Below are positions 32,345 through 36,730 of a DNA stretch of 64,000 bases, piece by piece (position 1 is the first letter of the stretch; each line of letters opens with the position of its first letter). The DNA comes from Candidatus Enterocloster excrementipullorum (GTDB lineage Bacteria > Bacillota > Clostridia > Lachnospirales > Lachnospiraceae): contig DWWT01000002.1 of assembly GCA_019119575.1 (NCBI GenBank), positions 62,001-126,000 on the forward strand. Reading direction: 5' to 3'. The notes beneath the pieces were generated by a model. That model saw only the letters and a program-made list of their open reading frames with translations. It was not told where the DNA came from and made no database searches. The position numbers were made by a program, and so were the translations under genes.

Positions 32345-33138
32345 TCTTTGTACTCTCCTTTTACCGCAAATGCATGATTCATAGGCCCGCTTCCCTTCCC
32401 CAGATCAAGCATGGCCTCCAGGGCTCCCGACAGGTAGGCCTTCGCCTGCCGGACCGCCTCCTCCAGCGCAAGTCCCTTGGCCAGATTGGAGGCAATGGCG
32501 CTGGAAAGGGTACAGCCTGTCCCATGGGTGTTGGGATTGGCAATCCGCTTTCCGTAAAACCACTGGCATTTCCCCTCCCTGTAGAGAAGGTCGTTTGCAT
32601 CATTGAGCTGATGTCCGCCCTTGCAGAGAACCGCGCAGCCGTATGTGTCCCCGATGTATCTGGCAGCCCGCTCCATATCCTCCGGAGTGGAGATGTCCAT
32701 CCCGGAGAGTATCTGGGCCTCGGGTATGTTGGGCGTGAGCACCGAAGCCATGGGCAGAAGCCGCTCCTTCAGCACACCGACGGCCTCCTCATCAATCAGC
32801 TGCGCCCCGCTGGTAGCCGCCATAACCGGATCAACCACAATATTTCCCGCATGGTAAAAGGAAAGCTTGTCCGCAATCACTCGGATCAATTTCCCGGAGG
32901 AGACCATGCCGATCTTCACCGCATCGGGAAAAATATCCGTAAAAATGTCGTCCAGCTGTTCCCCCAAAAATTCCGGGGTTACCTCCATAATCCCCGTGAC
33001 CCCCGTGGTATTCTGGGCCGTCAGGGCCGTGATGGCGCTCATGGCGTACACGCCGTGCACCGTCATTGTCTTTATGTCCGCCTGGATTCCGGCGCCTCCG
33101 CTGGAATCACTGCCGGCGATCGTCAACGCTGTCTTCAT
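32341..33138 (-). CDS. thiD: Hydroxymethylpyrimidine/phosphomethylpyrimidine kinase
   Basis: A 265-residue ribokinase-fold enzyme that phosphorylates HMP and HMP-P in thiamine synthesis, or pyridoxal-type substrates in some relatives. Motifs are LTIAGSDSSGGAGIQADIKT at the N-terminus, VVDPVMAATSG near residue 100, and the anion hole HGTGCTLSSAIASNLAKG near residue 205. It sits between the sirtuin and the cyclophilin with 4-bp overlaps on both sides. No other thi genes are nearby, so a salvage or pyridoxal role is possible. Confidence 0.93.
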   Translation of the reverse strand: MKTALTIAGSDSSGGAGIQADIKTMTVHGVYAMSAITALTAQNTTGVTGIMEVTPEFLGEQLDDIFTDIFPDAVKIGMVSSGKLIRVIADKLSFYHAGNIVVDPVMAATSGAQLIDEEAVGVLKERLLPMASVLTPNIPEAQILSGMDISTPEDMERAARYIGDTYGCAVLCKGGHQLNDANDLLYREGKCQWFYGKRIANPNTHGTGCTLSSAIASNLAKGLALEEAVRQAKAYLSGALEAMLDLGKGSGPMNHAFAVKGEYKE

Positions 33139-33893
33139 TGTCCGTCCTCTCCTGTCTCTTTCTCATAGTGCAGCAGGGGAAGTACATTCATGGGATAGTC
33201 CATGATGAGCAGATCCGCTCCCCTGTCTGTGTAGTGCTCTTTCTTATGGATCACCACCAGATATCTCCCGGAAAAATACTTCACATACTGTTCAAATACC
33301 TCTGAGGCCAGAGTGGTCCCCAAAAGCAGAAGCACGTCCGCACGGCCGATTTCCTGGGTAGTGCGGGTCATGTTCTGGCTGTCCACCATCTCACCGGTCA
33401 GCGATACCTGGGGACGAACCGGCACATTGCAGGTCTCACAGAGCGGAACCCGTTTTGCGTCCAGAATATAGGATATCGGATACATCCTTCCGCACCGCGG
33501 ACACTGGTTCCTGTAAATACTCCCGTGCAGATTAATCACGTTCCTGCAGCCGCCCCGTTCCATCTGCTCGTACACATTGGTGTCAATAATGCACTGAAGC
33601 CGCCCGGCCCGCTCCATATCCGCCAAGGCCCCCGCAGTGGCTGTCTCCCTGGGAATATTGCGCAGTATTTCATTTTTGTAAAAGTCAAAAAACTTTTCCG
33701 GGCGGGTGTTGTAGAACACGCTGGTGTACATCTCCTCCACACCCCATCCGTATTTCTCCTCGATGCTGTATGCACGCTCCTGCTTCTTGAGGCCCTCTAA
33801 TCCTCCTTCCTCCAGCATGCCGGAACCGCATAGGGCTACCGTGTACCTGCTCTCATCCAGCATCTGCCGCAGCTGGGCGATCTTATCCAACAT
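33135..33893 (-). CDS. Divergent SIR2 (sirtuin) family protein
   Basis: A 252-residue protein. Two CxxC pairs (CPRCGRMY near 132 and CETCNVP near 151) form the sirtuin zinc site, and NLHGSIY holds the catalytic-position His. LLLLGTTLASEVFEQ resembles the GTSL motif. The N-terminal NAD loop reads CGSGMLEEGG instead of GAGISxxSG, and the TQN motif reads DTN. It may act as a deacylase, ADP-ribosyltransferase or NAD sensor; the altered NAD loop makes plain deacetylase activity uncertain. ATG at 33893 has AGGAGG upstream and its stop overlaps thiD. Confidence 0.82.
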   Translation of the reverse strand: MLDKIAQLRQMLDESRYTVALCGSGMLEEGGLEGLKKQERAYSIEEKYGWGVEEMYTSVFYNTRPEKFFDFYKNEILRNIPRETATAGALADMERAGRLQCIIDTNVYEQMERGGCRNVINLHGSIYRNQCPRCGRMYPISYILDAKRVPLCETCNVPVRPQVSLTGEMVDSQNMTRTTQEIGRADVLLLLGTTLASEVFEQYVKYFSGRYLVVIHKKEHYTDRGADLLIMDYPMNVLPLLHYEKETGEDGQ

Positions 33894-33974
33894 GGTGCAT
33901 GCCTCCTCTCGCACTTTTCTTTATTATACAATTTTATGAGGAGAAACTCCACCTAATTCTCAATTTTTTCCATA

Positions 33975-34018
33975 TCTTCCATATACAAAGGGGCATAGGA
34001 TTCTCTTGTGCGCGGAGA
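33975..34018 (+). repeat. Upstream imperfect copy of a 43-nt hairpin element
   Basis: This shares ATACAAAGGGGCA and TGTGCGCGGAG blocks with the element at 34102-34144, in the same order and spacing, but with a weaker stem. A T-rich stretch follows it. It lies between the divergent sirtuin and BMP genes. Confidence 0.6.
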
Positions 34019-34062: not shown

Positions 34063-34144
34063 TGCTATAATGAAATACAATCTGATTTTAAACACACTCT
34101 GCCCTCCGTGTACAAAGGGGCACACGCCTCCTGTACGCGGAGGG
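34063..34144 (+). promoter_or_regulatory. Extended -10 promoter and leader hairpin of the ParB/BMP gene
   Basis: TGCTATAAT (34063-34071) is an extended -10; the -35 is weak. About 30 nt downstream, a 13-bp stem with one G-U pair, CCCTCCGTGTACA (34102-34114) and TGTACGCGGAGGG (34132-34144), encloses a 17-nt loop beginning AAGGGGCA. It is followed by AAAAGGAGG of the next gene. There is no U-run, so it is not a plain terminator. I do not recognise it as a known riboswitch class. Confidence 0.62.
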
Positions 34145-34174
34145 TAGCATCAGAAATAAAAGGAGGTTTTACAC

Positions 34175-36124
34175 GTGGCACTTATTGATTACGCAGCGGC
34201 GCAGAAACTGGGACGGAGGCGGTATCAGGATGCCCTTGTGCGCGGAAAATATCCCTATCTTCCTGTTCTGGACAATATCTTATCCTACACAGAGATCGCC
34301 TCTACTGTCAGCCTGGGAACCATGGACATTCCGCTGTCCCGGCTGGTAGGCACAAAGGCGGAAGATCGGACCAATGCCTTTGCCAACAACTTTATGCCTC
34401 TTCTCCCTGAGAAATCCGAGTTCGCCGCAAAGTGGTCCATGCTCTACGACTACCAGGTGGACGAGGGCATACGTGATCCGATTGTGGCCTTTGAATACAT
34501 GAACCAGTTCTATGTTCAGGAGGGCAACAAGCGGGTAAGCGTCATGAAATACCTGGGGGCTTACAGCATCCCGGGTACCGTCACCCGCCTGATCCCCAAG
34601 CGCACGGAAGAAAAGGAAAATAAAATCTATTTTGAATTTCTGGACTTTTACCAGGTATCCGGCAACTGCGAGGTATGGTTCAGCCGGGAAGGAAGCTACC
34701 GCCGTCTTTTAAAGCTTATGGGGAAAGCGCCGGGAGATGTTTGGGATGAGGAGGAACGCCTCTTCTTCAAATCCGCTTTTGGCCGGTTTTCCAAGGCCTT
34801 CCAGATGGCCCACGGCGAAAAGCTGGAGATGACGGTCTCCGATGCATTTCTGGTGTATGTGGAAATATATGGGTATGACCAGGCCCGGGGACAGACCGAG
34901 CGTGAGATGTACGCGGCTCTCCAGAAAATGTGGGCGGAAATCCGGCTTGCGGAGCGGGGGCGGCAGGTGGAGCTGGTTCAGGATCCGGAAAAGGCAAAAG
35001 AGCTTCTGCGTCCCTCCATTCTCAACTGGTTTATTCCTGCGGGAATGCTGGAGCCCGATACCTTAAAAGCCGCATTCATCTATACCAAGACCGCAGAGAC
35101 ATCCAGCTGGACCTACGCCCACGAGCTGGGCCGGATGCACATCGAACAGATCCTGGGTGAAAAGGTGAAGACCATGGCCTTTGACCATGCCGACACAGAG
35201 GAACAGACAGCCCAGGCCATTGAAAGCGCCATCAAAGAAGGGTGCGGCGTTATCTTTACCACGGCCCGGCAGATGGTGAATCAGAGCGTACGCTCCGCTA
35301 TTCTGCATCCGGATGTAAAAATTTATAACTGCTCCATCAAAATGTCCTATTCCTCCATCTGTACCTATTACGCGCGCATGTTCGAGTCCAAATTTCTCAT
35401 GGGAGCAATTGCGGCCGCCATGTCCAGGGCAGATCGCCTGGGATATATTGCGGATTATCCCATCTATGGGACCATGGCCAACATCAACGCCTTCGCCATG
35501 GGCGCCAGGATGATAAACCCCTATGTGAAGGTTCACCTGGAATGGTCCCGCACAAAGGAAGACCATGCGGCCGAACGCCTTGAGCAGCAGGGAATCCGCT
35601 ATATTTCCGGAGATGACATGATCACGCCGGAACGCGCGTCCCGCCGCTATGGCCTCTACACGGTCAGGCCGGACGGATCCGTAGAAAACCTGGCCACTCC
35701 TATCTGGCACTGGGGAAAATTCTATGAACAGATTCTGCGCATTCTCCTGGGCGCGGCCGGAGATACCAATTCCGCCAAGGGCAAGAAGGCCGTCAATTAC
35801 TGGTGGGGCATGTCCTCCGACGTGATCGACGTGATCTGCTCGGAAAACATGCCCCATGGAATCCACCGGCTTGTGGATCTTTTGAAGAATTCCATCCGCA
35901 GCGGAAGCTTCCGTCCATTTGACGGTTTGATCTATTCCCAGAGCCGGAAAATTCAGTGCCGGGAAGGAGAGAGCCTGAAGCCCGATGCCATCATTACCAT
36001 GGACTGGCTCGCGGAAAACATTGTGGGAAGCGTGCCGGAATTCGGGGAATTGACAGAAGAGGCCCAGAAGCTGGTTCAGCTCCAGGACATTGACATTGAT
36101 GAGACTACAGCAACGGAGAATTAA
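34175..36124 (+). CDS. Cytoplasmic ParB-like/BMP fusion protein
   Basis: A 649-residue protein with no signal peptide or lipobox. Residues about 50-141 resemble a ParB/Srx-like domain: MDIPLSRLVGTKAEDR, then DPIVAFEYMNQFYVQEGNKRVSV, with the GNKR position matching the ParB GxRR loop, then LGAYSIPGTVTRL. Residues about 145-285 are helical and unassigned. From about 297 to 625 it reads as a BMP-type periplasmic-binding fold (KAAFIYTKTAETSSWTYAHELGR, GVIFTTARQMVNQSV, MGAIAAAMSRADRLGYIADYP), related to nucleoside-binding PnrA/Med proteins. It may sense a nucleoside in the cytoplasm. The stop is followed 3 nt later by a phosphoesterase gene. Function unknown. Confidence 0.8.
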   Translation: MALIDYAAAQKLGRRRYQDALVRGKYPYLPVLDNILSYTEIASTVSLGTMDIPLSRLVGTKAEDRTNAFANNFMPLLPEKSEFAAKWSMLYDYQVDEGIRDPIVAFEYMNQFYVQEGNKRVSVMKYLGAYSIPGTVTRLIPKRTEEKENKIYFEFLDFYQVSGNCEVWFSREGSYRRLLKLMGKAPGDVWDEEERLFFKSAFGRFSKAFQMAHGEKLEMTVSDAFLVYVEIYGYDQARGQTEREMYAALQKMWAEIRLAERGRQVELVQDPEKAKELLRPSILNWFIPAGMLEPDTLKAAFIYTKTAETSSWTYAHELGRMHIEQILGEKVKTMAFDHADTEEQTAQAIESAIKEGCGVIFTTARQMVNQSVRSAILHPDVKIYNCSIKMSYSSICTYYARMFESKFLMGAIAAAMSRADRLGYIADYPIYGTMANINAFAMGARMINPYVKVHLEWSRTKEDHAAERLEQQGIRYISGDDMITPERASRRYGLYTVRPDGSVENLATPIWHWGKFYEQILRILLGAAGDTNSAKGKKAVNYWWGMSSDVIDVICSENMPHGIHRLVDLLKNSIRSGSFRPFDGLIYSQSRKIQCREGESLKPDAIITMDWLAENIVGSVPEFGELTEEAQKLVQLQDIDIDETTATEN

Positions 36125-36127
36125 CAG

Positions 36128-36730
36128 ATGAATATAATGGTATTGGCCGACCACGAATCAAAAATACTTTATGATTATTACGATCCCCAGAGAATGAAGG
36201 ATATCGATCTGATTATCTCCTGCGGCGATCTGGAACCGGAATATTTGAGCTTTTTCGCCACCCTCTGCCCGGTGCCGGTGCTCTACGTCCGCGGCAACCA
36301 CGACAGCAAATACCGGCACCGTCCTCCCGAGGGCTGCATCTGCATTGAGGACAATATTTTTGTCTATAAGGGGATCCGCATCATGGGGCTGGGCGGATCC
36401 ATGCAGTACATACCGGATGCGGAAAATCAGTACACAGAGCGTCAGATGCGGGGCCGGATTCGGAAAATGTTCTGGAAAATATGGAAAAACAAAGGGTTTG
36501 ACATCCTGGTAGCCCACGCCCCGGCCTATCACGTGAACGATATGGAGGACCTGCCCCATCAGGGTTTTAAAGCTTTCCGGGATCTTATGGACAAATACAG
36601 CCCCAAGTATTTCCTTCACGGCCACGTTCACGCCAATTACGGCGGGAATTTTAAGCGCAGGGACACCTACGGAAATACAACCGTTATCAATGCCTATGAT
36701 TTTTATGTAATCGAATACCCTGAAAGCTGA
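36128..36730 (+). CDS. Metallophosphoesterase (calcineurin-like)
   Basis: A 200-residue single-domain phosphoesterase with ISCGDLEPEYL near residue 31, the VRGNHDSKYRH metal motif near 55, ILVAHAPAYHVND near 128 and HGHVHANYG near 161. The first metal motif, normally DxH, reads ADHESK at residues 7-12, so a Glu replaces the His. It starts 3 nt after the ParB/BMP gene stop, so the pair is one transcription unit. The substrate, perhaps a cyclic nucleotide or phosphorylated nucleoside, is unknown. Confidence 0.87.
   Translation: MNIMVLADHESKILYDYYDPQRMKDIDLIISCGDLEPEYLSFFATLCPVPVLYVRGNHDSKYRHRPPEGCICIEDNIFVYKGIRIMGLGGSMQYIPDAENQYTERQMRGRIRKMFWKIWKNKGFDILVAHAPAYHVNDMEDLPHQGFKAFRDLMDKYSPKYFLHGHVHANYGGNFKRRDTYGNTTVINAYDFYVIEYPES

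Follow-up and report, generated by a model that had tools for sequence, protein, structure and literature searches.

A ParB-like/BMP fusion protein without an export signal and its metallophosphoesterase partner in Lachnospiraceae

In a 64,000-nucleotide stretch of the Candidatus Enterocloster excrementipullorum genome (contig DWWT01000002.1, positions 62,001 to 126,000, from an assembly of 3.18 Mb in 81 contigs; hereafter the window), two genes lie on the forward strand with 3 nt between the stop of the first and the start of the second: one for a 649-residue fusion protein, with a predicted ParB/sulfiredoxin fold near its N terminus and a BMP/AtzT-type substrate-binding domain in its C-terminal half (34175..36124; GTG start, with a likely ribosome-binding site, GGAGG, at 34162..34166), and one for a 200-residue metallophosphoesterase (MPE; 36128..36730; ATG start) in which metal motif I reads D-x-E. 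Here we describe the folds of these proteins, their strict gene partnership, the lack of an export signal in the fusion, purifying selection on its domains and the varying C-terminal domains of related ParB-like proteins. We consider it an even call that the two form a cytoplasmic sensing module, in which a ligand-gated, nucleotide-binding ParB-fold protein is served by a dedicated MPE. A first-pass annotation, made from the sequence, had proposed a cytoplasmic nucleoside sensor with this layout; both open reading frames (ORFs) are present as it claimed, as are all four of the motifs that it quoted (IPLSRL, DPIVAF, VQEGNKRVSV and IPGTVTRL), and its interpretation as a whole is partly supported, in that the layout holds and nucleoside specificity finds no support.

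The gene partnership was assessed in 299 genomes of the family, searched for the fusion (E ≤ 1e-30) and with an MPE profile (A4; E ≤ 1e-25). The fusion search matched 117 genomes, from which four (G017, G074, G110 and G268; G and L numbers denote genomes and loci) were removed, only the BMP half having matched. The fusion was thereby placed in 113 of the 299 genomes and the MPE in 114; all 113 fusion genomes have the MPE, including those in which the two genes lie apart (G013 and G238), 185 have neither, and the single MPE-only genome (G065) holds an MPE fragment at a contig end (Fisher value for co-occurrence 2e-83, which overstates independence, since the species are related). Every MPE match was at 2e-63 or better except one fragment (3e-40), and because these matches lie far beyond the 1e-25 limit, the MPE family stands apart. 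At 81 loci (the window and 80 fetched ones), the MPE adjoins the fusion in 76: it lies −100 to 300 nt downstream in 73, overlaps further in L049 and L059 (long start choice) and is directly upstream in L102. Among the loci with no adjacent MPE, L065 and L105 have it on another contig of the genome, in L118 it is found on the opposite strand at a distance of 3.4 kb, and L119 and L120 hold additional fusion copies, the first copy in each of these genomes having its MPE. In a second, overlapping set, drawn from genome contigs, the MPE is adjacent in 78 of 80 loci; of the two without it, one stops 32 nt past the gene. No other neighbour family occurs in more than 8 of the 80 loci, in a clustering that recovered even the MPE in only 70 of the 80, the ORF picker dropping overlapping frames. 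Within the genus, the flanks vary (that of L297 resembles the window, and those of L298 and L299 resemble each other), and in each of the five other loci long enough to show it (L297, L298, L299, L301 and L003) the MPE stays with the fusion. The two genes are thus conserved neighbours, as the first-pass annotation had expected.

The closest named relatives of the window fusion come from uncultured Hungatella sp. and Lachnospiraceae genomes. Fusion genes were also found in records titled Bacillus (L125) and Paenibacillaceae (L131), sharing 67% and 61% identity, respectively, with the Lachnospiraceae gene; these titles may be misassigned.

Residues 44-141 of the fusion (34304..34597, + strand) are predicted to adopt a ParB/sulfiredoxin fold, in agreement with the earlier suggestion for the first quarter of the protein. 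With the predicted structure as query, Foldseek placed Noc, KorB and ParB at the top of its list; the top nine rows align 216-252 columns and extend beyond the nucleotide domain, but at a root-mean-square deviation (rmsd) of 14-20, and the rigid match stops near residue 141. By sequence, a bridged profile (A5) matched sulfiredoxin at 7e-5 and, more weakly, ParB, Noc and SbnI (0.007 to 0.043), these four making up the top 10 of 14 rows, and hhalign aligned it with a ParB profile at E 6e-5 and a probability of 65%. The segment EGNKRVSV (residues 116-123; 34520..34543, + strand) corresponds to GxxR, the P motif of ParB-fold proteins, in which an R-to-A change abolished nucleoside triphosphate (NTP) binding in the binders tested (PMC12704722, main text). 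E116-V123 is invariant in all 15 sequences of a first alignment, and E116-R120 and S122, which include G117 and R120 of GxxR, are invariant in all 79 N-terminal relatives. The helical region that follows in the model secondary structure (residues 142-285; 34598..35029, + strand) contains a glutamate, E154, that is likewise invariant in the 79-sequence alignment; its position may be equivalent to the ENLQR helix of ParB, a reading of the sequences to which the extent of the alignment between A5 and ParB lends weak support. The partition ParB model TIGR00180 did not match the fusion at E ≤ 1, the MPE is the sole widely conserved neighbour, with no parA, and the genome's own ParB sits on a different contig (C72). 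A sequence search of the PDB with a fusion-only N-terminal profile returned two toxin chains, both of them chance rows at E about 1.

The C-terminal half (residues 294-621, with a start near 290; 35054..36037, + strand) is of BMP type, as had been noticed in the first pass. The Pfam model Bmp (PF02608) matches residues 298-468 with 52.6 bits (cut-off 24.1), and AtzT is the closest solved protein both in sequence (6pi5, 1.8e-35, followed by the Brucella lipoprotein 3s99 at 5.3e-34) and in predicted structure (Foldseek, 6pi5, E 2.5e-24, TM 0.77 on the target). Purified AtzT carried guanine, which it binds at 0.11 µM (adenine at 2.5 µM), and 3s99 was modelled with adenine (PMC6834077). AtzT numbering was carried onto the fusion by alignment, one offset fitting all nine quoted residues. 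On that alignment, the stacking Tyr45 of AtzT becomes Trp312, which is invariant in 15- and 76-sequence alignments, and the second-shell Asn169 is kept as Asn436. Most of the nine guanine-contact residues of AtzT-type purine binders are lost: Ser97, Glu165 and Thr139 correspond to Ala364, Gly432 and Lys406, Phe98 also differs, the Trp194 loop is absent, and Asn218 and Asn220 are not kept, in a region where the alignment is uncertain (the first differs and the second falls in a gap). By eye, the genome's ordinary Bmp lipoprotein still has the Ser-Phe and Glu positions. For a domain of this sequence, a heterocyclic ligand is plausible; because most AtzT base contacts are lost, there is no basis for claiming guanine or a nucleoside, and the nucleoside binding proposed earlier is unsupported.

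Export was assessed by a hydropathy and lipobox proxy, namely a 12-residue mean of at least 2.0 within the first 45 residues or a lipobox-like motif. Among 161 fusion proteins (two sets overlapping in species, and so not all distinct), neither a hydrophobic leader nor a lipobox-like motif was found, and the best 12-residue mean in the first 45 residues does not exceed 1.78; by this proxy, the absence of an export signal read from the window protein extends to its homologues. The ordinary Bmp lipoprotein that this genome also encodes has, by eye, both a leader and a lipobox. Transporter genes, which accompany BMP/PnrA proteins, are not widely conserved near the fusion in the 80 loci: the commonest neighbour family other than the MPE occurs in 8 of the 80, on the same strand in 2 of these 8 and about 5.7 kb off. 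By eye this family resembles a sugar permease, so isolated transporter genes do occur. Against three congeners (84-90% identical), the ratio of non-synonymous to synonymous substitution (dN/dS) was 0.02-0.13 in 11 of 12 domain comparisons (ParB-like domain 0.021-0.073, BMP domain 0.039-0.082, helical part 0.056-0.130), ratios that are rough given a dS of at least 0.86 in every comparison and a saturated dS in the twelfth. The domains of the fusion are under purifying selection.

The MPE matches the Pfam model Metallophos (PF00149) with 46.3 bits (cut-off 21.5). Motif I reads D8-H9-E10 in the window protein; across 49 MPEs, position 10 is Glu in 36 and His in none, so the Glu that the first-pass annotation had singled out is present and typical, though not universal. 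Motifs II to V are intact, with G33, D34, N57, H58, D59, H130 and H166 in all 49 and H164 in 48.

The partnership extends beyond the fusion. Among 398 genomes of the phylum, an N-terminal profile (A2) matched 16, comprising five fusions, eight ParB-like proteins of 308-361 residues with their own MPE beside them, two ParB-like proteins of 125 residues and one 40-residue match within a 279-residue protein. Of the MPEs beside these eight proteins, the six that were aligned are 39-45% identical to that of the window. Searched with the MPE profile, 25 of the 398 genomes matched, and a ParB-like gene is adjacent in 20 of them: 5 are BMP fusions, 5 have a Cys-rich tail, 8 a ferredoxin-like tail and 2 are short; G314 also has a ParB-like gene, away from its MPE. 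Pfam recognized 4Fe-4S domains in all four ferredoxin-like tails scanned (L222, L224, L261 and L259), the other four being assigned from Cys motifs; the Cys-rich tails were assigned by eye, and the two such proteins scanned (L217 and L218) matched no Fer4 model. In a FastTree tree of 49 MPEs (midpoint-rooted, supports not inspected), the BMP-linked MPEs form one group apart from the others, as expected if the fusion had a single origin. From these comparisons, the conserved core is the ParB-like protein with its MPE, and the sensor domain looks exchangeable; because the core is constant and the ends change, the ends are suggested to be inputs.

Further features of these relatives were seen. 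Cys-rich or 4Fe-4S stand-alone ParB-like proteins lie beside the MPE family at L217-L221, L222-L224 and L259-L264 (none seen in L260), and several match the C-terminal half of DUF4032. A link between the fusion and DUF4032 was rejected: the fusion has no match, and the stand-alone proteins of L217, L222, L224, L259 and L261 match half of the model, 3 of these 5 below its cut-off. The 125-residue proteins (L225, 4351-4728; L226, 5941-6318) are free-standing ParB/Srx-like domains whose genes lie upstream of what looks, by eye, like a glycerol kinase gene, and one of the two genomes (G314) has its MPE on another contig.

In the mechanism that we infer for a sensing module, the ParB/sulfiredoxin-fold domain would bind nucleotide through GxxR (Arg120); the AtzT-type domain would close on a small heterocyclic ligand and so set nucleotide binding or turnover; and the MPE, in physical contact with the fusion, would perform or reset the output, its most likely action being the hydrolysis of a phosphate ester that the ParB-like protein either makes or presents. 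We suggest more tentatively, as a possibility that we would not bet on, that an undescribed class of sensing systems combines a constant ParB/Srx switch and D-x-E MPE with lineage-specific sensors, so that ligand or redox state gates how a nucleotide or phosphometabolite signal is turned over. The sensors of such a class would be an intracellular purine-type domain in Lachnospiraceae and near relatives and a 4Fe-4S or Cys-rich domain in other classes of the phylum.

Several results weigh against a sensing module built on a nucleotide-binding ParB fold. The fusion occurs in only 7 of 17 genomes of the genus, its own included, and is not a core gene. Four genomes (G299, G597, G619 and G687) have the MPE, but neither their fetched stretch nor the A2 search showed a ParB-like gene, though the A2 search also missed seven genomes that do carry one (G305, G338, G391, G425, G454, G570 and G637); in L258, where the ORF picker lost even the MPE, the absence of a ParB-like gene is weak. 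Conversely, G583 and G638 have a ParB-like match and no MPE of the A4 family. A fusion-only profile had no ParB match by hhalign (probability 0.3%), and the Pfam model PF02195 matched 5 of 79 N-terminal relatives (best 0.0035) and not the window protein (E ≤ 1). Finally, 17 of 28 purified ParB-fold proteins bound no NTP (PMC12704722, main text).

The strongest rival, because of SerK matches in two stand-alone members, is a metabolite kinase/phosphatase pair, in which a SerK/SbnI-like kinase domain would phosphorylate a free metabolite supplied or sensed by the BMP domain and the MPE would remove the phosphate. In scans of these two, SerK outscored ParB for one protein and was the sole match for the other. 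The matches to the SerK model (NF053625) nevertheless reach only 18.9 and 18.5 bits (L217 and L268) against a cut-off of 380, the window fusion has none at E ≤ 1, and no counterpart of Glu30, which is catalytic in SerK, was located in the ParB-like proteins. We regard a kinase/phosphatase pair as unlikely, if worth keeping in mind.

A DNA-binding regulator, in which a BMP ligand would set ParB-type DNA binding in the manner of LacI/PurR and the MPE would adjust the ligand pool, appears improbable. The Foldseek list headed by Noc, KorB and ParB, with alignments running past the nucleotide domain, favours such a regulator, as does the presence in PurR (2pua) of the same substrate-binding fold as the C-terminal half (Foldseek), but those long alignments superpose badly, and no helix-turn-helix family matched the fusion (2 of 79 relatives gave a single weak Myb-like match, best 0.04).

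A role in anti-phage defence or in the processing of nucleic acids, in which the ParB-like protein would be a nuclease and the MPE would cut a nucleic-acid or signal phosphodiester, strikes us as quite improbable. All 27 MPEs of alignment A4 match the PADLOC model PDC-S10 at E ≤ 1e-5 (best 1.6e-19; window MPE, 61 bits), the nearest solved MPEs by sequence, all weak, are MPPED2, at 4e-5, and the lariat debranching enzymes, at about 1e-3, and the patchy presence in the genus would suit a defence system. Yet PDC-S10 is a candidate model with no curated cut-off, and no paper naming it was found in the literature searched; the fusion and two scanned stand-alone ParB-like proteins match no PADLOC model (E ≤ 0.1), the locus has no other widely conserved neighbours, and a purine-type binding domain or 4Fe-4S tail would be unexpected on a nuclease. 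That the fusion is an ordinary transporter lipoprotein, misannotated and carrying an N-terminal extension of no relevance, as PF02608 above its cut-off might suggest, is already contradicted and hardly credible, given the missing leader in 161 of 161 proteins, the lack of widely conserved transporter genes nearby, and an N-terminal domain that is as constrained as the BMP domain and occurs elsewhere without it.

Upstream of the fusion lie two copies of a TACAAAGGGGCAYA...CGCGGAG element, one at 33978-34017 and the other inside a hairpin (34099-34147) with 16-nt arms, and the leader folds better than 200 of 200 shuffles (z −5.5). A conserved riboswitch or leader was rejected: an Rfam scan found no family at threshold, a further leader search gave only chance-level rows, the element is confined to its own genome (exactly two copies without mismatch; 4 of 276 fetched loci, all from that genome), and it is missing from L297, a relative at 90% identity that shares the flank. 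The pair looks like a recent small local insertion. Promoter and terminator scans gave no excess over shuffles. A divergent SIR2-family gene (33135-33914, − strand; 3e-20) has a motif reading CGSGMLEEGG, the usual SIR2 motif being GAGxS; a conserved link to it was rejected, the neighbour recurring in 1 of 160 related loci and in L297. Separately, a SIR2-like gene follows the ParB-4Fe-4S gene on the same strand in all five examined genomes of another family, f18 (L223, L259, L262, L263 and L264). A phage origin was rejected after a viral-contig scan gave no relative; of five phage records with matches, one, an unannotated fecal contig, covers most of the query (37.5% identity).

Compared with known systems, the individual folds are familiar, and the literature searched points to an undescribed layout: no ParB-BMP fusion or ParB-like/MPE pair appeared among the matches listed, judged by titles and abstract beginnings. 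AtzT and 3s99 are the closest solved relatives of the C-terminal half and share its stacking aromatic and second-shell Asn, but they are periplasmic, and most AtzT base contacts are lost in the fusion. The MPE family shares GD, GNHD, H and GHxH with calcineurin-like MPEs (PF00149; YfcE subfamily weakly) and departs from their D-x-H motif I, the His being replaced, mostly by Glu. SerK/SbnI serine kinases have the ParB/Srx fold in common with the fusion, and it is two stand-alone members that match them, far below cut-off. The Bacillus activator of comK (Med, 2hqb) has a Bmp-type domain in common with the fusion (7.9e-8); we know of no ParB-like domain or MPE partner for Med. Domain matches alone would label the pair a transport lipoprotein and a generic phosphoesterase.

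Closest in kind are the ParB-CTPase-fold fusions (PMC12704722, PNAS 2025), which have the same fold, GxxR and fused domains outside partition operons, and among which archaeal ParB-CBS proteins are sensor fusions too. In the main text of that study, none of the terms PnrA, BMP, substrate-binding, phosphoesterase, metallophos and DUF4032 occurs, and its domain search used PF02195, a model that misses the window protein. It describes ParB-fold proteins as widespread NTP-binding modules whose jobs are mostly unknown; the pair described here links one branch of that fold to a fixed partner enzyme and to a natural input domain, and makes the control target of an orphan ParB-fold switch directly testable with two small soluble proteins.
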